Below are positions 8,628 through 20,779 of a DNA stretch of 38,409 nucleotides, in pieces. The stretch is from an uncultured Lachnospiraceae bacterium (GTDB taxonomy: Bacteria > Bacillota > Clostridia > Lachnospirales > Lachnospiraceae): the NCBI GenBank assembly GCA_947175175.1, contig CAMWLV010000019.1, positions 1-38,409 of the forward strand. Reading direction: 5' to 3'. The notes beneath the pieces were generated by a model. The model was given only the letters and a program-made list of their open reading frames with translations, made no database searches and was not told the DNA's origin. The position numbers were made by a program, and so were the translations under genes. Numbering within the stretch: position 1 is the stretch's first letter; every line of letters begins with the position of its first letter.

Positions 8628-9080
8628 ATGCTCAAACAAAATGGATACGCACAATATCAAAACGCGAAAATTATGACAGCCTCACCGGCAGAGCTGACAC
8701 TGATGCTCTATGATGGGGCGATTAAGTTCGGTAATGTAGCTATTCTGGCAATGGAGAACAAGGATCCTGCAAAGGCACACGAGAATATCGTCAAGGTTGA
8801 GAAGATTATCCAGAATTTCAGGGATACTCTTGACAGGAAGTATGCGGTATCGCAGGAGTTTGAAAATGTGTACGTATATCTGTTGAGACGATGCCACGAG
8901 GCAAATGTAGCCAAGGATCCAGAGATTATGGAGGAAGTGTTAAAGCACCTGCGTTCCATGAGGGATAACTGGAAAGAGGTAATGAAAAAAGTTGCCGGGG
9001 ATAAGAGCAATCCGGCTGCGCAGGCAAAAGTGGCTGGCGGGCAGGGCAATTTAGGTGCTTATAAGAGAACTGGAACCTGA
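8628..9080 (+). CDS. fliS: Flagellin-specific export chaperone FliS
   Basis: FliS binds the C-terminal helices of flagellin in the cytoplasm and keeps it unpolymerised until export. The 150-residue product has the family signature (YAQYQNAKIMTASPAELTLM followed by LYDGAIKF) at residues 7-34 and a four-helix pattern with FENVYVYLLRRCHEANV. A short Gly/Ala/Lys-rich tail after residue 120 extends past the usual 125-135 residues. AGAAAGAAGG precedes the start. It follows the palindromic element and precedes a FlgN-like chaperone gene by 41 bases, so these two form a chaperone pair. Confidence 0.92.
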   Translation: MLKQNGYAQYQNAKIMTASPAELTLMLYDGAIKFGNVAILAMENKDPAKAHENIVKVEKIIQNFRDTLDRKYAVSQEFENVYVYLLRRCHEANVAKDPEIMEEVLKHLRSMRDNWKEVMKKVAGDKSNPAAQAKVAGGQGNLGAYKRTGT

Positions 9081-9121: not shown

Positions 9122-9598
9122 ATGACAGAAAATTATCTGCAGATCATGACAGAAAGTCTGGAAAAGAAACTTGAAGTACTTGACAAAGTCTATGAGATCA
9201 ACAAGCGCCAGCTGGCGGCTTCGACAAAGAGACCGTTTGACACAGAGGCGTATGATGCTATTATGGACGAAAAAGGTGAGCTGATCGATGAACTCAACCG
9301 CCTTGATGATGGATTTACGTCGACCTATGAGCTTGTCAGGGAGGAAGTACAGAGCAATCCCGACAAGTACAGGGAAAAGGTTCTAAGGATGCAGGATCTG
9401 GTCAGGGAAGCAGTTGACAAGGGCGTTTCAATCGAGGCGCAGGAGCAGCGCAACAAAGCTTCGATGGAAGCGGCATTGACTTCGAAGCGACAGGAGATCA
9501 GGGAGCGCAGGGTGACAGCGAGTGCAGCGACGAAGTATTACAGTGCCGTCAGTAAGTTAAATACGGTCGATCCACAGCTTATGGATCGAAAAAAATAG
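9122..9598 (+). CDS. FlgN/FliT-like flagellar chaperone, coiled coil
   Basis: A 158-residue, almost entirely helical protein with high charge and no membrane segment or signal peptide. Its opening (YLQIMTESLEKKLEVLDKV, then IMDEKGELIDELNRLDDGF) has the pattern of FlgN-type chaperones, which escort hook-associated proteins FlgK and FlgL to the export gate. It follows fliS by 41 bases with GGAAGGGGA upstream and is followed at once by an intrinsic terminator, so it ends the flaG-fliD-fliS transcript. The family call rests on length, helical pattern and context, not on a catalytic motif; FliT or an unrelated coiled-coil chaperone is possible. Confidence 0.6.
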   Translation: MTENYLQIMTESLEKKLEVLDKVYEINKRQLAASTKRPFDTEAYDAIMDEKGELIDELNRLDDGFTSTYELVREEVQSNPDKYREKVLRMQDLVREAVDKGVSIEAQEQRNKASMEAALTSKRQEIRERRVTASAATKYYSAVSKLNTVDPQLMDRKK

Positions 9599-9631
9599 GA
9601 ATGTATAACGACAGTTATAACGTCATGGATG

Positions 9632-9671
9632 ACGCGCAGGCATATTTGTATAAGTATGCCTGCGCGTTTTA
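9632..9671 (+). terminator. Intrinsic terminator after the FlgN-like gene
   Basis: A perfect 13-bp GC-rich stem (9632-9644 with 9655-9667, ACGCGCAGGCATA / TATGCCTGCGCGT) and a 10-base loop are followed by TTTTA. A second small palindrome (TACGTACAAAAATACGTA) follows directly. The T-tract is short, so some read-through into the glycosyltransferase genes is likely. Confidence 0.75.
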
Positions 9672-9702
9672 CGTACAAAAATACGTAAGGGGAGGACTAA
9701 AT

Positions 9703-10773
9703 ATGTCAAAGGTGCCGGTAACGGTATGCATTATTGCGAAAAATGAGGAAAAATTCATAGAGGATTGTCTGAAACATTTGCTGCCATACGGTATGGAGAT
9801 TATTGTGGCGGACACAGGTTCCACGGACAGGACAAAGGAAATTGCGGAGAAATATGCCGATAAGGTTGTAGATTTTGAGTGGATCAATGATTTTGCGGCT
9901 GCCAGAAACTATTGTGCTTCCTTTGCCAAAAACAACTGGATACTGGCAATCGACTGCGACGAGATCGTGCAGTCAATTGACATCAGAATTTTAAGAATGT
10001 TAATGCAGAAGCATGCCAAATATACAGGAGTGCTTCGCTTGAAAAATATCACGAATGATGGCAAGGGACATAAGGGATACGTCAATACAGATGTGCCGCG
10101 CATGTATAATAAAAATTTTTATACTTTTGATTATGCCATACATGAGCAGATCGTTCCGATTGATCCTGCAAAGCGTGATGATCCGATGGATGGATTTCTG
10201 CTCCCGATTGATATTATTCATCATGGATATGCACTTGACAATGAGACCATGAAAAAGAAACAGGTCAGAAATCTCGAACTGCTTTATCAGGAGCTCGAGG
10301 CGACGCCGGATAAGGGATATGTTTATTTCCAGATCGGTCAGTCACAGCTGACGCTCAATGGCGCCGAGGAGGCGATAGCTGCCTATGAGAAGGCGATGGA
10401 GCATATACCAGATTTGGGAAAATATTATGTGCCGGAGTTGATTATGTCCCTCGCAAACACTTATGCTGATGCGGACAGAATACCAGATGCGTTGGCACTG
10501 ATGGAGAAGTATGCTAAGGATTTTACATCGGCGAAGTATGTGTTTACATATGCAAATATTTTGTGGAAAGACGAACAGATCTTGAAGGCGCTGGGAAATT
10601 ATATTAAAGTAACAACACTGCCAGATATGGGAACTCTCGGCGGCGAGCTGACTGACTGCTATGGCAGAATCATACAGATTTATGAAGCATTTGGTGAGAA
10701 GGAGATGGCGGAGAATTTCCATCAGCGTTTTCTCGCGTACCATGCAGACAAGGAAAAAGTGACAAACGCATAA
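9703..10773 (+). CDS. Family 2 glycosyltransferase with C-terminal TPR-like repeats, copy 1
   Basis: A 356-residue cytoplasmic GT-A glycosyltransferase of the SunS-like, TPR-containing type. The catalytic domain has VCIIAKNEE (8-16), DTGSTD (37-42), DFAAARNY (63-70) and the metal-binding DCD at 84-86. The C-terminal half has helical repeats of TPR type (YFQIGQSQLTLNGAEEAIAA, YVPELIMSLANTYAD). I reject the longer frame from 9601 because it runs through the terminator; ATG 9703 has GGGGAGGA in front and matches the next gene. It lies 36 bases upstream of a paralogue and then the protease flagellin. Position in a flagellin island suggests flagellin O-glycosylation; the acceptor and sugar cannot be read from sequence. 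Confidence 0.88.
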   Translation: MSKVPVTVCIIAKNEEKFIEDCLKHLLPYGMEIIVADTGSTDRTKEIAEKYADKVVDFEWINDFAAARNYCASFAKNNWILAIDCDEIVQSIDIRILRMLMQKHAKYTGVLRLKNITNDGKGHKGYVNTDVPRMYNKNFYTFDYAIHEQIVPIDPAKRDDPMDGFLLPIDIIHHGYALDNETMKKKQVRNLELLYQELEATPDKGYVYFQIGQSQLTLNGAEEAIAAYEKAMEHIPDLGKYYVPELIMSLANTYADADRIPDALALMEKYAKDFTSAKYVFTYANILWKDEQILKALGNYIKVTTLPDMGTLGGELTDCYGRIIQIYEAFGEKEMAENFHQRFLAYHADKEKVTNA

Positions 10774-10809: not shown

Positions 10810-11880
10810 ATGTCTAAGATACCAATTTCAGTGTGTATCATTGCCAAGAACGAGGAGGAGCACATAGAACAATGCCTGAAACATCTGAAAAAGTACGATT
10901 GGGAGATCATCGTGACGGACACCGGTTCCACAGACCGCACGAAGGAGCTTGCCGAAAAATATGCAGATAAGGTGGTTGATTTTGAGTGGATCGATGATTT
11001 TGCCGCTGCGAGGAACTACTGTGCTTCTTTTGCGAAAAATAACTGGATACTGGTGGTCGATTGTGACGAGTATGTCACCAATGTTGATATCAGCGCATTG
11101 AGGATCTTGATGCAGCGCTATCCGCGCTATGCAGGTGTGATGCGGCTTACCAATCTGATTCCTAAGAACAGTGGTGAAAAAGGGTATGTTTCGGATGATG
11201 TGCCGCGGATGTACAATAAGAATTTCTATCAGTATTTCTTTCCGATTCATGAGCAGATCTGCACCACGGAATCCGGAAAAAGTATGGACTCTTTGGAGGC
11301 CTTTCTGCTTCCGATGGAAGTCATTCATCACGGATATGCCCTGACAGGTGAGGCGATGGAGAGAAAGCAGAGGAGGAATCTGGATCTGCTTCAGAAAGCT
11401 ATTGAGAAGGATGGCGGAAACGGATATCATTATTTCCAGATGGGGCAGTCCTATTTTGTGCTTGATGATATCGACGAGGCGATCCGTTCATATGAGAAGA
11501 GCCTGGGCATAACGGAGAGTGTGGAGCACGTTTATGTTCCGGAGCTGATCATGTCGCTGGCAAAGGCATACTGCCGAAAAGACAGGTTTCCAGATGCACT
11601 GGAGCTCTTGGAGAAGTACAATAAAATTTACAATTCAGCGAAGTTTACGTATGAATATGCGAATCTGCTTAGGGAGAACGGTCGAATAGTCAAGGCGTTG
11701 ATGTTGTATGTCAAGGTGACGACAATGAAGGATTTGGAGACATTGGGGGAGAATCAGCTGTCATGCTATGCCCATATTGTTGACATATACAGAGGGATGG
11801 GCAATATGGAAATGGCAGAGCTGTTTGAACAGAAGCTTCAGCAGTGCGTGGCTGAGAGAGAACGTGTGGTGAACAGTTAA
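10810..11880 (+). CDS. Family 2 glycosyltransferase with C-terminal TPR-like repeats, copy 2
   Basis: This 356-residue paralogue of the preceding gene has the same length and the same motif positions: VCIIAKNEE (8-16), DTGSTD (37-42), DDFAAARNY (62-70) and DCD (84-86). Repeats in the second half include YHYFQMGQSYFVLDDIDEAI and VPELIMSLAKAY. The two copies are a tandem duplication, probably acting on different acceptors or adding successive sugars. GGGGGAGAA precedes the start. The flagellin protease gene begins 106 bases downstream with no terminator or recognisable promoter between, so cotranscription is likely. Confidence 0.88.
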   Translation: MSKIPISVCIIAKNEEEHIEQCLKHLKKYDWEIIVTDTGSTDRTKELAEKYADKVVDFEWIDDFAAARNYCASFAKNNWILVVDCDEYVTNVDISALRILMQRYPRYAGVMRLTNLIPKNSGEKGYVSDDVPRMYNKNFYQYFFPIHEQICTTESGKSMDSLEAFLLPMEVIHHGYALTGEAMERKQRRNLDLLQKAIEKDGGNGYHYFQMGQSYFVLDDIDEAIRSYEKSLGITESVEHVYVPELIMSLAKAYCRKDRFPDALELLEKYNKIYNSAKFTYEYANLLRENGRIVKALMLYVKVTTMKDLETLGENQLSCYAHIVDIYRGMGNMEMAELFEQKLQQCVAERERVVNS

Positions 11881-11986: not shown

Positions 11987-14104
11987 ATGGTAATAGCACA
12001 CAATCTTATGGCTATGAACAGTCAGAGACAATTATCTATAGTAAGTGGTACAGTATCAAAGAAAGCGGAAAAGCTCTCTAGTGGATATAAAATCAATAGA
12101 GCCGCTGACGATGCGGCAGGTTTGTCGATTTCTGAAAAGATGAGACGCCAGGTCAGGGGACTTACCAAGGCAACAGAAAATGCAGAGGATGGGATCTCCA
12201 TGGTACAGATCGCAGACGGCGCTTTAAGTGAAGTGCAGGATATGCTCCAGCGCATGAACGAGCTCTGCGTACAGGCTGCAAACGGTACAAATGCTGCATC
12301 TGACAGACAGAATATTCAGGATGAAGTCACACAACTGATCGCGGAGATCGACAGGGTGGCAGAGACAACGAAGTTTAACGAGACATACCTTTTGAACGGA
12401 AGCCTTTCTAAAGGTGGCAGGGGCGCGTACAATCTGGCGATCAATAACAGGAAGTTTGAGGAAGTCAAGAAAAAATATGAGGAAGACAAGGAAAAAGCAA
12501 AGCTGAAGCTGACAGCCTTAAATGGGGCGAATGCAGGGAAAGAACTGTCGCTGGATGCACTTTCGGATACCAAGGGTCTTAAGATTATCTACATGCAGGA
12601 TAGTATTCAGACCACTCAGACAGCAAATGGAAAACCAACTTCCACTGATCCGAAGTATACTCAGTTAAAGAATGCTTTGAAGATGGAAATTGTACCCAAT
12701 GCAGTGCAGGAAATCATTGCTGCATTTTCGCCGGCATACGATTTTTTGAATAATTCAAGTATTGGGATTGGGCTTGCACTTGGCGGAAACAACTATCCGG
12801 GACTTAGTTCATCGACACTTGCATATGTCAGGTTTGGACATTATTCCTATTCGGATGGTACAGTCGATCCAAACACACTGGAGTACCAGCTTGCGGTCAA
12901 TGTGGATGCATTGAAGATTGATAATAACGGAAATCTGGATGCAGATTCAAGGAAAAAACTTGAGGTTACGATCGTACATGAAATGATGCATGCGTTTATG
13001 GATGAAGCGCTCACAAACGGAATGACTGGCACAGTAGATGGAAAACATGCGGATGACCGTTTCCCGAAGTGGTTTATTGAGGGAATGGCGCAGGCAGCGG
13101 CAGGCGGATATTATGATGGAAATGACTGGGTGAATGGCGGACTTGGTATCAATACAACATCGGGCGACAGCTTTATCAGCTCACAGCTGCAGGCAAACAA
13201 GCTTGGAGGGAGCAGCAATACATCCAATTATGGAACCGGATATCTTGCAAGTATGTATCTTGGATATCTTGCGGGCGGAAAAACTGTAAATGCAGCATCT
13301 ATGAAAAATGGGCTTGCAACAGTGCTGAAAGACATACGAGATGGTGAAAGCCTTCAGGATGTCATCGTACGTCTGACCGGTAAGACATCGATTACGGACT
13401 TTGAGAACAGTTTTTCTAAAGATGCAAATGTTATCCAGTTTGTAAAAGATTTGACAGCTTTTGTCGGCGGTGGAACTGGTGGGGCAGTAGGTAATTTCAC
13501 GACAGCTAACGATATCCTGGCAGATAATGCGATAACATCAGGTACTCCGGCTACATTGTTTGAGTTGAATATTCAGAACGACAACGTAAAGAATGTTTAC
13601 AATGATCCTGATTATATTGTGTTCAAGGGTGGTTCTGCCACAAACGGTAAGGGTTCGTACAACAATGGTCCGCTTGAGATTGCAGCAAGTAAGCATATCA
13701 CAGGTTTTGGCGCAGCGATTCACGCAGGTACAGACACAGATATGAACAACAAGATTCATGTATACATTGATGCTATGGATGCAGCAAGTATTGGTGTGGA
13801 TCAGGTAGATGTCCGTACAGTAGACCTTGCCACACTTTCCATAGAGCGTGTGGCACTCGCACTGGCACAGGTCTCCGCACAGCGCTCAGAGTTAGGAGCA
13901 TGCCAGAACCGTCTCGAGCACACCATCAATAACCTTGATAATGTTGTAGAAAACACAACGGCAGCCGAGAGCCAGATCCGCGACACAGACATGGCAAAAG
14001 AAATGGTAGCATACTCCAATGCAAATATCTTACAGCAGGCAGGTCAGTCCATGCTCACACAGATGAACCAGAGCAATCAGGGAGTGCTTTCATTGATCGC
14101 TTGA
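11987..14104 (+). CDS. Flagellinolysin: flagellin with an internal zinc metalloprotease domain
   Basis: A 705-residue flagellin with conserved N-terminal D0/D1 (MVIAHNLMAMNSQRQL, residues 1 to about 145) and C-terminal D1/D0 (QNRLEHTINNLDNVVENTTA to NQGVLSLIA). The inserted central region of about 430 residues contains HEMMH at 331-335, a gluzincin-type HExxH, and WFIEGMAQ with E365 as the likely third zinc ligand. This is the arrangement described for flagellinolysins, which form proteolytically active filaments. H331, E332, H335 and E365 are all present, so it should be active. It lies behind two glycosyltransferases and before a mini-flagellin, and lacks its own sigma-28 promoter. Whether it is a major or minor filament subunit, and what it cleaves, is not visible. 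Confidence 0.93.
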   Translation: MVIAHNLMAMNSQRQLSIVSGTVSKKAEKLSSGYKINRAADDAAGLSISEKMRRQVRGLTKATENAEDGISMVQIADGALSEVQDMLQRMNELCVQAANGTNAASDRQNIQDEVTQLIAEIDRVAETTKFNETYLLNGSLSKGGRGAYNLAINNRKFEEVKKKYEEDKEKAKLKLTALNGANAGKELSLDALSDTKGLKIIYMQDSIQTTQTANGKPTSTDPKYTQLKNALKMEIVPNAVQEIIAAFSPAYDFLNNSSIGIGLALGGNNYPGLSSSTLAYVRFGHYSYSDGTVDPNTLEYQLAVNVDALKIDNNGNLDADSRKKLEVTIVHEMMHAFMDEALTNGMTGTVDGKHADDRFPKWFIEGMAQAAAGGYYDGNDWVNGGLGINTTSGDSFISSQLQANKLGGSSNTSNYGTGYLASMYLGYLAGGKTVNAASMKNGLATVLKDIRDGESLQDVIVRLTGKTSITDFENSFSKDANVIQFVKDLTAFVGGGTGGAVGNFTTANDILADNAITSGTPATLFELNIQNDNVKNVYNDPDYIVFKGGSATNGKGSYNNGPLEIAASKHITGFGAAIHAGTDTDMNNKIHVYIDAMDAASIGVDQVDVRTVDLATLSIERVALALAQVSAQRSELGACQNRLEHTINNLDNVVENTTAAESQIRDTDMAKEMVAYSNANILQQAGQSMLTQMNQSNQGVLSLIA

Positions 14105-14138
14105 TCATTTACACAATAGATAATTCGTTTGACAAAAG

Positions 14139-14171
14139 AAGGGTATATGCACATACATATGCTCTTTTTTT
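14139..14171 (+). terminator. Intrinsic terminator after the flagellinolysin gene
   Basis: AGGGTATATG pairs with CATATGCTCT (two GU pairs) across a short loop and is followed by seven T at 14165-14171. Confidence 0.75.
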
Positions 14172-14230
14172 GTTGAATTGTACAAGTTGTCTGAAATTAT
14201 AGAAATTTACATAAAATTTAAAATAATTAG

Positions 14231-14259
14231 TTGACATAGTCTGACAATTCGGGTACAAT
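14231..14259 (+). promoter_or_regulatory. Sigma-A promoter of the mini-flagellin gene
   Basis: TTGACA at 14231-14236, a 17-base spacer and TACAAT at 14254-14259 are a near-perfect housekeeping promoter. This contrasts with the sigma-28 promoters of the neighbouring flagellins. The 75-base leader includes an AATTAAT/ATTAATT hairpin with AAAGG in its loop and a CsrA-like ACAAGGAGGT ribosome binding site. Confidence 0.82.
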
Positions 14260-14342
14260 AGAATTGTTAAGAGGGGTGACATAACATCGTGTCATCAGAA
14301 TTAATATAAAGGATTAATTGTTTTTCACAAGGAGGTATTAGT

Positions 14343-14684
14343 ATGGATATCAAGAGTAGTTTCACCTATGACAGCAAGATCACAAACGATGCATATGCGG
14401 CAAAGGCTAGTGCAATAGCAGCAAAAGAGAACAAACTCGCGACAGGGCAGAGAGTTTCAGAGTTATCTTCTGATGCAGCATCTCTTCAGATCAAGTCCAG
14501 GGCAAGTGAATCTGCAGAGGCCGCACTTGAGAATATCAACGCAGCATCCAGTGCGGTTGAGGACGTGGCAAGGGCAGAGGAGATGATTCGTGAGGCAAAC
14601 CGCCGCATCTTAGAGCAGTCTGATGATTCCGTGCTTGCACAAGCAAACCAGTCGACAGCAGCAGTTACAAAGCTGTTAGGTTAA
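14343..14684 (+). CDS. Mini-flagellin: short protein resembling only the flagellin terminal helices
   Basis: A 113-residue, highly helical, Ala/Ser/Glu-rich protein. Residues about 25-60 (ENKLATGQRVSELSSDAASL) recall the flagellin SEKLSSGYKINRAADDAAGL segment. The last 45 residues (VARAEEMIREANRRILEQ, LAQANQSTAAVTKLLG) recall the flagellin C-terminal D0 helix (EMVKYSNANILQQAG, LAQ-NQSNQGVLSLLG). The MVVQHN start, the central domain and most of D1 are absent. It has its own sigma-A promoter, strong RBS and terminator, so it is a maintained gene and not a decayed flagellin. It might bind FliS or FliW as a mimic, cap or plug filaments, or be exported; none of these is shown. The function is unknown. 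Confidence 0.85.
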   Translation: MDIKSSFTYDSKITNDAYAAKASAIAAKENKLATGQRVSELSSDAASLQIKSRASESAEAALENINAASSAVEDVARAEEMIREANRRILEQSDDSVLAQANQSTAAVTKLLG

Positions 14685-14698
14685 TATCGATTTATATA

Positions 14699-14727
14699 AA
14701 AAACCGGTCGTGTGATCGGTTTTTTTG
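14699..14727 (+). terminator. Intrinsic terminator after the mini-flagellin gene
   Basis: ACCGGTC pairs with GATCGGT (one GU), extended by flanking A/T pairs, and ends in a run of eight T. The following 14728-14944 is AT-rich without a gene. Confidence 0.88.
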
Positions 14728-14776
14728 TATTTTATACACAAATTATTTAAATTGTGCATATTTTTGCAAAAATTTC

Positions 14777-14804
14777 TAATATTTACATAACGGATTGCCG
14801 ATAA
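14777..14804 (+). promoter_or_regulatory. Possible second, weaker sigma-28 promoter upstream of flagellin 4
   Basis: GCCGATAA at 14797-14804 is a perfect sigma-28 minus-10 box, but the upstream element is only TAAT and sits one base too far (17-base gap to CCGATAA). It may act in tandem with the strong promoter at 14945. Confidence 0.3.
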
Positions 14805-15118: not shown

Positions 15119-16783
15119 ATGGTAGTACAGCACAATCTTAAAGCTATGAACGCGAACAGAATGTTGAACATCAATACGAATGCGTCAGCGCGTTCTACAG
15201 AGAAACTTTCAAGCGGCTATCGCGTAAACAGGGCTGCAGACGACGCGGCAGGACTCGCGATCTCAGAGAAAATGAGAAAGCAGATCCGTGGTCTGACACA
15301 GGGTTCCCGCAACGCAGAGGACGGTATTTCCGCAGTGCAGACAGCAGAAGGTGCACTTGCAGAGGTACAGGATATGCTCCAGAGAATGAATGAGCTCTGC
15401 GTACAGGCAGCAAACGGCACAAACTCCGTTACAGACCGCCAGTATATCCAGGATGAGATCGATCAGCTTGTAACTGAGATGGACAGAATCTCAGAGACGA
15501 CCAAGTTCAATGAGACTTATCTTCTGAAGGGTGATAAGACACAGCCAGAAGATCTGGTACATACATTTAACTATATCAAAGGCGACAAGATTGACCAGAC
15601 AGGACAGTCCAAGGTTCTAAATAGTTCACTGGCTAAAGTAAAAGTAAATTACAATGGAACTGACAATGTATATGTTGTCAATGCAGCCAGCATCAATGCT
15701 TCCACAGTAAATAGTCCTATGACGGCGGATGTTGTCTCAAAAGGTTCTGATTTCACAAAGTACCTTGATGATGGTACGACGGTTGGTCCAAGCTCTTCTA
15801 TTACGGCTTTGAAGCTCAGTACAGATTATGCAATATTTAAGAATACAAAACTGAAGGATGATGCACTCGAGATTCAGACAGGTACGAAGAACCTTGTGAG
15901 CAAAGGTGGAGAAGATGCTTATATCTATGATACGAAGACGAAGAATATTATCCATGTAAAGGCAGGAGAAGACCTGTCAGAATATGTGGAGCTGATTGCA
16001 GGCGAGAAGGATAAATATACGATGAAAGAGCAGTACAGATTGCTCTACAATGCAAATAAGGATGCGACACCTGCAATAGCGGGGACTTTAGGAGAAGATC
16101 AAGTTAATGCTGAAGCAATAAAGGCAGAGGATCTCATTGGTGCAGTATCTGAGAATAGACTCTACAATAAAGACGGTGTTGAAGTATCAGGCATGGGGCT
16201 ATACAAGTATTTCAATGAGAATGGTGACTACAAGGGAGGCTTATTTGCTGATAAGGATGCGACAATGAAGATTACAGAACAGAAAGTGCTTGATGATGGT
16301 ACAACTGCATCCTTATATTTCGGAGGCTATATCAGCAGTCTGAGTGAGAAAGTGACAGCTCCGTTGACATTCAACGTTCACGCAGGTTCCGATTCTGATC
16401 TTACAAACAGAATTTCTGCGACAATTGATACCATGTCAGCAGCAGGACTTGGTGTCAATAGATTAAAGAGCACTTCTATTGGTATCGTGGATGAGACAGG
16501 TGACAATGCGAGAGAGGCGATCGATGTTGTCGGAGAGGCATTGAAGATTGTATCGACTCAGCGTTCTATCCTTGGTGCAGTGCAGAACCGCTTAGAGCAC
16601 ACGATCGCGAACTTGGACAACGTAGTAGAGAACACCACGGCGGCAGAGTCAGCAATCCGCGACACAGACATGGCAGAGGAGATGGTGAAGTTCTCCAACA
16701 ACCAGGTGCTTATGCAGGCAGGTCAGTCAATCCTTGCACAGGCAAACCAGGCAAATCAGGGTGTACTCTCACTCCTACAATAG
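15119..16783 (+). CDS. fliC: Flagellin, paralogue 4
   Basis: A 554-residue flagellin with conserved ends (MVVQHNLKAMNANRMLNI, and ANQANQGVLSLLQ). The start at 15119 has AAGGAGG at 15105-15111; the longer frame from 15077 would include non-conserved residues. The TLR5-contact stretch is LQRMNELCVQAANGTN, identical to that of the protease flagellin. The variable domain (about 145-460) is unlike that of paralogues 1 and 3 and contains long Asp/Lys/Thr-rich stretches. It is transcribed alone from a sigma-28 promoter and ends at its own terminator. Confidence 0.96.
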   Translation: MVVQHNLKAMNANRMLNINTNASARSTEKLSSGYRVNRAADDAAGLAISEKMRKQIRGLTQGSRNAEDGISAVQTAEGALAEVQDMLQRMNELCVQAANGTNSVTDRQYIQDEIDQLVTEMDRISETTKFNETYLLKGDKTQPEDLVHTFNYIKGDKIDQTGQSKVLNSSLAKVKVNYNGTDNVYVVNAASINASTVNSPMTADVVSKGSDFTKYLDDGTTVGPSSSITALKLSTDYAIFKNTKLKDDALEIQTGTKNLVSKGGEDAYIYDTKTKNIIHVKAGEDLSEYVELIAGEKDKYTMKEQYRLLYNANKDATPAIAGTLGEDQVNAEAIKAEDLIGAVSENRLYNKDGVEVSGMGLYKYFNENGDYKGGLFADKDATMKITEQKVLDDGTTASLYFGGYISSLSEKVTAPLTFNVHAGSDSDLTNRISATIDTMSAAGLGVNRLKSTSIGIVDETGDNAREAIDVVGEALKIVSTQRSILGAVQNRLEHTIANLDNVVENTTAAESAIRDTDMAEEMVKFSNNQVLMQAGQSILAQANQANQGVLSLLQ

Positions 16784-18142: not shown

Positions 18143-19468
18143 TTAAAAAAGCAGATGGTTTTCTGCCCCGCGGATTTCCGCTACTCTGCGGAAGACAGCT
18201 GGCTGCATGGCATACAGAAATAACTGCAGGCTTGGCTCATAGTTCTTGATGAGAGCTACGTCCTCGCGGGTGGCGAGCATACGGTAGTTTTTGTCGATGT
18301 AGACTACATTTTCACTGAAATCAAGCGAAAAGTTGAAATCTTTGATGCCAAGGATAGAATCACAGCGGATTATGGTGACTGCACTTGGCGAGGGCAGCTG
18401 CATAAATACAATATCAGGGTTGATCTGGCGGATAACCTGTTCCAGAAAAGGATCGTCGTCCTCCATATAGACGGATTCCTGTTCCTGAAAAAAGCTTACA
18501 AAGCCAAGTCCGTTATCGTCATTTTCAAGGATGCGGTCGTCGGCTGCTTTGCCGTGTACGCCGTTCACTGCATCGAGAAGCGCGGATACGTCAGACTGTG
18601 CCATATTGTGAGCATGTCCCATTCTGTGCAGATAAAAAGCCTCAAAAACAGATCGCAGCAGGACAAGGCTCATCTTGTTGCACGCCTCTGGTTTTGTGTA
18701 TTTCATGAAAAAGTTCATGCAGTTTCGTGTCATGTAGTAATTTACCTTTGTGTTGTCACAGCGGTGCATAGGGCTTGCGGCATGGTAGAGATGGGCAGCG
18801 CCAAGCGCCACGACTTCAAAGCCGGCTTGCTTGATCCGGTATCCCCACTCAGTATCGTCCCAATAGAGAAAGTTGTCGGTCGGCATCAACCCTACATTGC
18901 GAATCGCGTCAGCGCGTACCATCATACAGCAGCTGCTGACAGCATCACAATATACGATATTTGGAATGTTTTCACTGTCTGGAGTGTCCGCATAGAGCAT
19001 GGAAGCACGGCAGTGTTTGAAATCGACAGAGATTCCAAACTGCTGTATGTAATGTGGCATATGTTTGTGATATACCTTGCCGCCCACGAGACCAGTCAAG
19101 GGGCTTGTGATCATATAGTCCAGCATGGCTGTAAGCGCATCGGGTGCAACGGTAATTTCTTCGCCGAGACAGCAGATGTATTCAAATCCCTCTTGTAACG
19201 CCTGCTCAATGCCGAGGTTGAGTCCGCCGCAGCTGCCGAGATCGACATCAGAATGTGTAAATACGATCGTATCCCCATATGTCTTTGCGATCACAGTCTG
19301 TGAGTCATCGTCCGAGGCATTGTCAATCACAAAGATTTTCAGATTGCTGCCCACATCAAGCAGCTTGGAGGCGAGTACAGATGCTATACAGTCAACAGTA
19401 CTTTTTACTTTATTGTAATTGCATATTACAACTGCAAGTTTTTCTTGATTTTTCATAGTCATAACCAT
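18143..19468 (-). CDS. Family 2 glycosyltransferase (rhamnosyl/galactofuranosyl-transferase-like)
   Basis: A 441-residue cytoplasmic glycosyltransferase. The N-domain has VVICNYNK (13-20), VIDNASDDD (47-55) and GSCGGLNLGI (78-87), the pattern of GT2 enzymes related to rhamnosyl- and galactofuranosyl-transferases. The conserved acceptor-side motif YWDDTEWGYRIKQAGFEV lies in the second quarter. At the usual DDD position the protein reads CLGEE (100-104), an unusual metal site. The last 150 residues match nothing I know. Three in-frame ATG codons (19468, 19462, 19456) are possible; AAAGG upstream favours 19462. A promoter on - (TTGTTG-N17-TATAAT) precedes it. It lies back to back with a TPR-glycosyltransferase-glf pair. 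Confidence 0.85.
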   Translation of the reverse strand: MVMTMKNQEKLAVVICNYNKVKSTVDCIASVLASKLLDVGSNLKIFVIDNASDDDSQTVIAKTYGDTIVFTHSDVDLGSCGGLNLGIEQALQEGFEYICCLGEEITVAPDALTAMLDYMITSPLTGLVGGKVYHKHMPHYIQQFGISVDFKHCRASMLYADTPDSENIPNIVYCDAVSSCCMMVRADAIRNVGLMPTDNFLYWDDTEWGYRIKQAGFEVVALGAAHLYHAASPMHRCDNTKVNYYMTRNCMNFFMKYTKPEACNKMSLVLLRSVFEAFYLHRMGHAHNMAQSDVSALLDAVNGVHGKAADDRILENDDNGLGFVSFFQEQESVYMEDDDPFLEQVIRQINPDIVFMQLPSPSAVTIIRCDSILGIKDFNFSLDFSENVVYIDKNYRMLATREDVALIKNYEPSLQLFLYAMQPAVFRRVAEIRGAENHLLF

Positions 19469-19684: not shown

Positions 19685-20779
19685 ATGAAATTCAGCTTAT
19701 GCATGATTGTAAAAAATGAATCTGAAATATTGCGGGACTGTCTTGACTCGCTGAAGGATATTATGGATGAGATCATCATTGTGGACACGGGTTCCACAGA
19801 TGACACCAAAAAGGTTGCGGCAGAATACACGCCATACCTGTATGATTATGCGTGGAATGATGATTTTGCGGCTGCCAGAAATTTCGCTTTTTCAAAGGCA
19901 ACTGGAGATTATATTTACTCGGCGGACGCTGACGAGGTATTAGACCGCGAGAACCAGGACAAGCTCAAAGCGTTAAAGCGCGCTATGCTGCCAGAGGTGG
20001 AGATCGTGCAGATGATCTATGTGACAGAGCAGATCAACCACCCGACAGAAAACTTTGCACGCGACCTGCGCCCCAAGCTCTTTAAGCGGCTTAGGGAGTT
20101 TACATGGATTGAGCCGATTCATGAGACTGTGAATATCAATCCGGTCATCTATGACAGTGATATTGAGATTCAGCATCGTCCGCAGGGCAGTCACAGCAGC
20201 AGGGATTTGAGTGTGTTTGAGAAGATTATCACAGAACAGAGGGTTCTCTCTGACCGCCTGATGGGAATGTATCTGCGTGAACTGTACAAGGCGGGGACAG
20301 AGGAAGAACTGGGGACAGCAGAGGTATTTTTTGAGCGCGCCCTGATTGAAAAACGCGGGGAGGGTAAAGAATTGCTGTGTCGGCAGATAATCGCTGTGCT
20401 TTTGAAGATTTACAGGATAACGGACAATCCGATCAATATCCTGAAAGTGGCTTTGAGCGAGGAGGCGACCATACCATCGGCGGAGATCTGCATGGAGCTT
20501 GGCTATTTTTTTATGAAGAAAGAAGATTACGAGGAGGCTGCCAAGTGGTTTCACAGGGCAGGCTATGACTGCGAGAGCGAGATTGATGTGGCGAGCAGCG
20601 GAACGTCCGCGTTTATGGCACTGGCGCTGTGCTGCAGGAAGCTTACCAAGTCGCCGAAGGTCAGGGCTCTGCCGCAGAAGGAATACGAGCTTGAGCAGAC
20701 AAGACTGACAGAGAAGGCTGCCGAGTACGAGCAGCTTGCACGGGACTGGAAGCCGGTGGAGCCGAAATTGATTAATTAG
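19685..20779 (+). CDS. Family 2 glycosyltransferase with TPR-like C-terminus, copy 3
   Basis: A 364-residue member of the same family as the two tandem copies at 9703 and 10810 but more distant. It has LCMIVKNESE (5-14), VDTGSTDD (33-40), NDDFAAARNF (58-67) and the metal-binding DAD at 81-83, so it should be active. The second half contains helical repeats (CMELGYFFMKKEDYEEAAKW). The RBS GGGGG lies 7 bases before the ATG. glf begins 11 bases after its stop, so the two are one operon. That suggests, without proving, that a galactofuranose-containing glycan is being built. Confidence 0.87.
   Translation: MKFSLCMIVKNESEILRDCLDSLKDIMDEIIIVDTGSTDDTKKVAAEYTPYLYDYAWNDDFAAARNFAFSKATGDYIYSADADEVLDRENQDKLKALKRAMLPEVEIVQMIYVTEQINHPTENFARDLRPKLFKRLREFTWIEPIHETVNINPVIYDSDIEIQHRPQGSHSSRDLSVFEKIITEQRVLSDRLMGMYLRELYKAGTEEELGTAEVFFERALIEKRGEGKELLCRQIIAVLLKIYRITDNPINILKVALSEEATIPSAEICMELGYFFMKKEDYEEAAKWFHRAGYDCESEIDVASSGTSAFMALALCCRKLTKSPKVRALPQKEYELEQTRLTEKAAEYEQLARDWKPVEPKLIN

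Follow-up and report, generated by a model that had tools for sequence, protein, structure and literature searches.

The question raised by this locus is what could be the role of a protein of 113 residues that resembles one end of flagellin and is encoded among flagellin genes. The window, i.e., the whole analysed stretch of 38,409 nucleotides, belongs to an uncultured member of the Lachnospiraceae. The gene is referred to below as mini; in the available parts of the literature the term 'mini-flagellin' is used for other things. This small gene is real and conserved, derives from flagellin and is located near FliS; its product is probably a chaperone-bound mimic of flagellin and not a building block of the filament.

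Gene and Genomic Context

In the window mini is flanked by a 705-residue flagellin bearing an HExxH segment and by a full-length flagellin (Table 1). Flagellins with HExxH in the variable region represent the flagellinolysin type, as described in the accessible parts of PMC5595980 and PMC7643111. FlaG, FliS (recognized by Pfam), the FlgN-like gene and FliD, the last labelled from the position and appearance of its gene, are all located upstream of mini. Genes that look like those of glycosyltransferases (named by appearance) are interleaved with the flagellin cluster at 9601–10773, 10810–11880, 18143–19468 and 19685–20779.

An obligate link between mini and the flagellinolysin-like neighbour was considered and rejected. 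An insert related to the protease region of this neighbour is present in 14 of the 38 genomes of the genus, and 12 of the 14 also carry mini. Since the insert is absent from eight genomes with mini, and two genomes (G008 and G018) possess the insert without mini, the link is not obligate. The G012 copy of the gene with the insert is broken by stop codons.

Table 1. Features of the mini locus and of the related genes (positions in the window).
Feature	Position	Strand	Remark
FliS, presumed partner	8628..9080	+	PF02561, E=1.6e-36
FlgN-like gene	9122..9598	+	PF05130, 16.5 bits, below the cut-off of 30.5
Upstream neighbour, a flagellinolysin-like flagellin whose variable region bears an HExxH segment	11987..14104	+	
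Sigma-A-type promoter TTGACA-17-TACAAT	14231..14259	+	11/12 consensus matches
Leader hairpin GGUGACAU...GUGUCAUC	14275..14296	+	Modest covariation; close to the mRNA 5' end inferred near 14266
Shine-Dalgarno AAGGAGG	14329..14335	+	ACAAGGAGGT invariant in the 13 rows of each alignment
Mini-flagellin coding sequence (mini), 113 aa	14343..14684	+	ATG-initiated ORF
Weak trace of the flagellin KLSSGYKINRAADDAAGL stretch, residues 27–53	14421..14501	+	
Flagellin C-terminal D0 arm, residues 62–112	14526..14678	+	
S93-D94-D95 at the position of the flagellin AGQ motif	14619..14627	+	
Intrinsic terminator-like hairpin	14698..14725	+	
Sigma-28-like site ahead of the downstream flagellin (contrast to mini)	14777..14804	+	
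Full-length flagellin, downstream neighbour	15119..16783	+	

Distribution and Purifying Selection

Relatives of mini occur in 20 of the 38 genomes of the genus, a count that includes one genome (G456) whose mini came from inspecting the FliS loci. Fourteen carriers form a close clade, four a distant one (G006, G010, G012 and G031), and two (G014 and G023) are placed elsewhere. A search of 60 relatives gives 13 close matches, the window included, with 61–100% identity over the full or nearly full length, and further standalone matches that are shorter and more distant. A motif pattern picks up 18 of the 20 proteins, those of G015 and G023 being recognized by homology only.

Homologues restricted to non-flagellated contexts, which the earlier note held to speak against its reading, are not what is observed. 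The mini genes lie in a flagellar cluster or a syntenic region in 18 of the 20 genomes, and 17 of these 18 adjoin flagellar genes; in G032 the region is syntenic with the window and no recognized flagellin adjoins mini. In four distant relatives mini directly follows the counterparts of FlaG-FliD-FliS-FlgN (gene labels at the loci are the best BLASTP matches to the ORFs of the window). The relatives in G014 and G023 are located off the flagellar cluster, next to an M20 peptidase gene, with promoter-like sequence of their own (L052:9580–9912 and L053:9569–9901). G032 also has a divergent short frame with a mini-like C-terminus (L057:2502–2909), near a flagellinolysin-like gene and on a contig separate from that of its mini.

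No mini was found in the other 18 genomes of the genus, several of which are incomplete, and the gene is thus regarded as dispensable. Inspection of the FliS loci of 20 genomes, among them 16 of these 18, revealed mini only in G456; some of the contigs end early.

A profile search over 397 genomes of the family (334 genera) places the window protein at the top (160.7 bits). The next-best matches listed score at most 62.7 bits and are long flagellin-sized frames or short flagellin ends. No mini from other sampled genera is among the matches listed, down to about 49 bits, a score below which divergent minis could escape the search. The motif pattern also has matches in 10 further genomes of the family outside the genus, none of them a mini. 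Taken together, the profile ranking and the motif pattern indicate that mini appears to be confined to one genus, judged on few genomes per genus. Sixteen short-frame flagellin-like matches among those listed were considered as minis and rejected: 13 are flagellin ends cut by contig ends, and three are flagellin ends inside contigs. The AGQ motif of flagellin is kept in 15 of the 16, and the 16th (L095) was seen as a contig-edge frame only. In phages tblastn gives no match to mini. Of 16 loci in a named collection, nine belong to close relatives, each of them a member of the Lachnospiraceae, including bacterium A4 (L039) and IMSAGC_011, and these organisms presumably live in guts. The other seven loci match the C end only (39–49% identity).

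Purifying selection on the gene is strong: dN/dS amounts to 0.06–0.16 in the 14 ortholog pairs chosen, and the 13 close matches contain no internal stop codons. The values are 0.08–0.28 for the N half and 0.00–0.10 for the C half, the latter being lower in 14 of 14 pairs; the halves are short, and in one pair dS of the C half is saturated. Across 45 full-length flagellins from the loci retrieved, N60 (78%) and C55 (71%) show similar degrees of conservation. The 113-residue frame described in the earlier note is confirmed as a gene, and the dN/dS ratios of mini indicate more than chance.

Relation to Flagellin Domains

Two parts of flagellin, the N-helix and the extreme C-terminal D0 helix, had been seen in mini. 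The C-terminal one is upheld. The C-terminal 51 residues align with one of the flagellins of the window without gaps (22 of 51 identities, 43%), and the Pfam family Flagellin_C (PF00700) is passed with E=1.6e-6 and 28.8 bits at a cut-off of 23, which supports the claim that mini keeps the chaperone-binding end of flagellin. Among distant members PF00700 gives 16.9 bits for G014, below the cut-off, and no match for G010. Profile comparison of the C halves of the four distant-clade members with eight flagellins yields a probability of 96.5%. By these comparisons, the C half of mini clearly corresponds to flagellin D0-C, the distant clade included.

The N-helix is marginal, and undetectable in the distant clade. 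Flagellin_N (PF00669) reaches E=0.06 and 13.9 bits, short of the cut-off of 26.6, and BLASTP of the N half against the flagellin aligned above gives no alignment. For the N halves of 11 close members, a profile match of 27 columns over the KLSSGYKINRAADDAAGL stretch has a probability of 30% (E 5.5e-4). The best stretch of the NCBIfam LafA flagellin model covers residues 8–54 (E=4.6e-5, 22.9 bits, far under the cut-off); since this model touches residues 8–54, the N-helix of the earlier note is genuine, as a faint vestige within a single clade. In the four members of the distant clade the probability of a flagellin profile match is 0.4%, and no relation between the N halves of the two clades is detectable (probability 6.5%).

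The N-terminal D0/D1 helical region of flagellin was looked for in mini and not found, apart from this weak trace. The D1 core domain is missing, as only the C-terminal 51 of the 113 residues align firmly. With both regions lacking, mini is no proper flagellin. At the position of the AGQ motif the 20 minis carry SDD, ADD, ANE, SGD or SND, so the triad contains an acidic residue in 20 of 20. Among 59 full-length flagellin C-termini, collected with a motif filter, AGQ is found in 54 and Gly in 57. The replacement of AGQ by acidic triads in all 20 minis argues against a normal filament subunit. The AlphaFold model contains two helices (7–32 and 40–112) and is poor (mean pLDDT 65.4, pTM 0.26); Foldseek with this low-confidence model gives no match at E up to 10.

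Expression Signals

The sigma-A promoter that the earlier note had assigned to mini is supported as a conserved consensus match. All 16 orthologs scanned possess TTGACA-(16 to 18)-TAnnnT at 104–119 nt upstream of the start, a count that leaves out the window, G032, G014 and G023, and in none of these 16 does a sigma-28-like score upstream of mini exceed 8/12. G032 also possesses a TTGACA-type promoter with a longer leader, and in G014 and G023 TTGACA-17-TAATCT is seen by eye upstream of mini. A sigma-A scan of 5 kb gives 23 matches of at least 9/12 vs. 11.3 in shuffles, so a weak match alone would be meaningless; only two matches reach 11. The 20-nt stretch starting at -35 (TTGACATAGTCTGACAATTC) is almost invariant across 13 aligned orthologs.

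The claim that this promoter differs from those of the neighbours is valid for some of them. The contrast is clear for the flagellin at 15119, whose sigma-28-like site scores 11/12, a value reached in 3 of 400 shuffles. It is moderate for the flagellins at 309 and 3590 (10/12, reached in 23 of 400 shuffles), and absent for the flagellin at 1910 (9/12) and the flagellinolysin-like gene (8/12), both of which score at chance level.

The -35 element and the spacer (14231–14259) are conserved beyond the need of a promoter, and in the distant clade a perfect palindrome TTGACATTTTCTGTCAA occurs at the position of the mini promoter (L051 9600–9809). Together these observations suggest a bound regulator. 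A quasi-palindrome TTGWCA-N5-TGWCAA covering -35 is conserved together with the gene. Its role as the operator of a regulon was considered and rejected, since it occurs at five places in the genome, as does the reversed control (5), which gives no regulon signal. The sole other near-copy of the mini promoter (3 mismatches) was discarded as well; it sits within an opposite-strand ORF.

In the leader hairpin 90.2% of cells pair across 13 aligned orthologs vs. 12–83% when the positions are slid, and its covariation score is matched by 2 of 500 shuffles. The support for this hairpin is moderate because the double-change pairs are matched by 87 of 500 shuffles and, of five leaders folded singly, one does not surpass its shuffles (L047 has z -0.39, and L051, from the distant clade, z -1.18). 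An Rfam scan of 14100–14800 gives two matches, both far under the gathering scores. Of 20 orthologs, 17 have a T-run 3' of mini, and a stem is seen there by eye; G014 has a stem without a T-run, and in G015 and G032 mini runs into a glycosyltransferase-looking gene. Codon adaptation of mini, calculated against six ribosomal genes, is 0.65, close to that of rpoB (0.646), within the range of flagellins (0.55–0.70) and compared with 0.53–0.70 in 20 other genes of the window. The conserved promoter, the T-run and the codon adaptation suggest good expression of mini.

Candidate Partners and Possible Functions

The chaperones of flagellin differ in the ends that they bind, as reported in the available parts of the cited papers. 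In B. subtilis FliS is wrapped around D0-C of flagellin, and the contacts of FliW are mostly with the N-terminal region and also include residues 240–260 (PMC6070490). A 60-residue N-terminal construct binds FliW, and HDX marks residues 11–34, 50–72 and 240–260 (PMC6070490, PMC5466977). In C. jejuni FliS needs the C-terminal subdomain of flagellin and FliW the N-terminal one (PMC5466977).

The C end of mini matches the flagellin chains from the FliS complexes 6gow (2.3e-4), 6lea (0.0069) and 6ch3 (0.057); the match to the chain of 1ory is not significant (0.85). By homology mini contains the C-terminal segment that is held by FliS in other bacteria. Since the N-helix is marginal and undetectable in one clade, FliS is the better candidate partner, and the asparagine N64, discussed below, keeps FliW possible. 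A FliS-family match is present in 37 of 38 genomes of the genus and is strong in 35. G015 (86% complete) keeps mini though only a divergent FliS match was found there. In addition, 36 of the 38 genomes carry another gene of the FliS family, which is more divergent (G000:C5:32301–32618, minus strand).

The best explanation, proposed tentatively, is that mini is a lineage-specific D0-C protein, made from a sigma-A promoter, which binds FliS as a flagellin mimic, competes for FliS and is perhaps exported. Of its flagellin origin mini retains the C-terminal D0 arm; D1 is gone, together with the greater part of the N-terminal D0. Owing to its own sigma-A-type promoter, mini could be present before the sigma-D flagellins or without them. 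Since mini keeps the FliS end of flagellin, we infer a FliS-binding mimic that is independent of sigma-D. Most likely bound to FliS in place of flagellin, it would compete with flagellin both for FliS and for FliS docking at the export gate, and this competition would set the amount of free FliS. Then mini may be exported without joining the filament.

This explanation is favoured by the lower dN/dS of the C half, unlike the evenly conserved ends of flagellin, and by a known competitor for FliS, HP1076 (PMC7248283). Counted against it are the location of mini off the flagellar loci in G014 and G023, the divergent FliS of G015 and the 18 of 38 genomes in which mini was not found. In addition, deletion of HP1076 is described in the accessible part of the paper as giving no motility phenotype, and HP1076 is located at the membrane independently of FliS (PMC7248283).

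A more far-reaching version, which is doubtful, regards mini as a sigma-A-driven decoy that would keep FliS and the late export gate in a defined state, either ahead of flagellin synthesis or in its absence, i.e., as a second protein-level check besides FliW-CsrA. If this were true, flagellin export would be controlled by a homologous chaperone decoy made ahead of the sigma-D genes, a type of control without counterpart in the literature searched, and mini would be a natural minimal client of FliS by means of which export could be studied apart from assembly. The gene is present in the named strain Lachnospiraceae bacterium A4, which makes these proposals testable.

Alternatively, mini could be a secreted effector escorted by FliS, like FlaC of Campylobacter; it would be exported via the flagellum and act outside the cell, on a host or on neighbours, instead of controlling FliS. 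FlaC is a ligand of FliS but not of FliW, and is released by secretion instead of being assembled (PMC5466977, PMC4863622, available parts). In mini, too, the FliS end is retained and the FliW end is mostly lost, and its named close relatives belong to the Lachnospiraceae and presumably live in guts. This function is unlikely, since mini is devoid of any D1, the site of TLR5 recognition (PMC5578693), and retention of both D0 and D1, as reported for FlaC (PMC5466977), was looked for in mini and not found.

The asparagine N64 would be central if mini triggered the FliW-CsrA switch, binding FliW via this region, freeing CsrA and restraining flagellin translation until the sigma-D flagellin appears. 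It is nearly invariant in the 20 minis, and its counterpart in an alignment of eight flagellins is an asparagine present in all eight. Residues 55–112 of mini match 246–303 of the 304-residue flagellin 5wjv at equal lengths, which places N64 at position 255, and N255 of B. subtilis Hag is taken here to be a FliW-critical residue. FliW is present in 35 of 38 genomes of the genus, and CsrA directly follows FliW in the source genome. Such a trigger is nevertheless improbable: FliW does not track mini (it is present in 18 of the 20 carriers and in 17 of the 18 other genomes), and FliW binding maps to the flagellin N-terminus (PMC6070490, PMC5466977), which is degenerate or undetectable in mini. 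For C. jejuni, the accessible part of PMC5466977 argues against a role of the asparagine equivalent to N255.

A still less probable function is that of a minor axial subunit, which co-assembles at the filament tip, base or seams and primes or stops growth. The D0 region of flagellin, to which mini is homologous, lines the filament core, and nearly all minis are found in flagellar or syntenic regions. However, D1 is absent, one clade shows no detectable N-terminal partner helix, AGQ is replaced by triads with an acidic residue throughout, and a component of the filament would not be expected to have a sigma-A promoter. The loss of D1 and AGQ makes it less likely that mini primes, stops or plugs the filament, as suggested in the earlier note. 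Finally, a decaying flagellin relic without function, to which the patchy occurrence in the genus and the multicopy flagellins of the window could point, is hardly credible, as it is largely refuted by purifying selection; the promoter retained in every ortholog scanned and the intact frames of the 13 close matches also speak against it.

Comparison with Known Systems

The statement that mini has no described counterpart is correct in so far as no D0-C-only flagellin was found in the open literature searched (subscription papers were mostly outside this search). It overlooked FlaC, HP1076 and YvzB; these precedents are known, and none of them was seen to be D0-C only. The comparison below follows the available parts of the cited papers.

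FlaC of C. jejuni (PMC4863622, PMC5466977) is, like mini, a flagellin homologue; it is not involved in motility. It is bound by FliS, not by FliW, and largely lacks the variable domains. FlaC carries D0 and D1 (PMC5466977), whereas in mini D1 is missing and the N-terminal D0 is reduced to a trace. Both FliS binding and secretion have been demonstrated for FlaC, whereas mini is known from its sequence. YvzB of B. subtilis, a smaller homologue of the main flagellin Hag that is dispensable for assembly and motility (PMC4793158, PMC8929632), can be likened to mini by its description.

HP1076 of H. pylori, a small lineage-restricted competitor of flagellin for FliS (PMC7248283), is proposed here as the functional analogue of mini. 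Such competition is shown only for HP1076 and is a sequence-based proposal for mini. The two proteins would use different parts of the flagellin-FliS interface: HP1076 consists of 171 residues and has a D1-like structure (PMC7248283), whereas mini is homologous to the D0-C arm.
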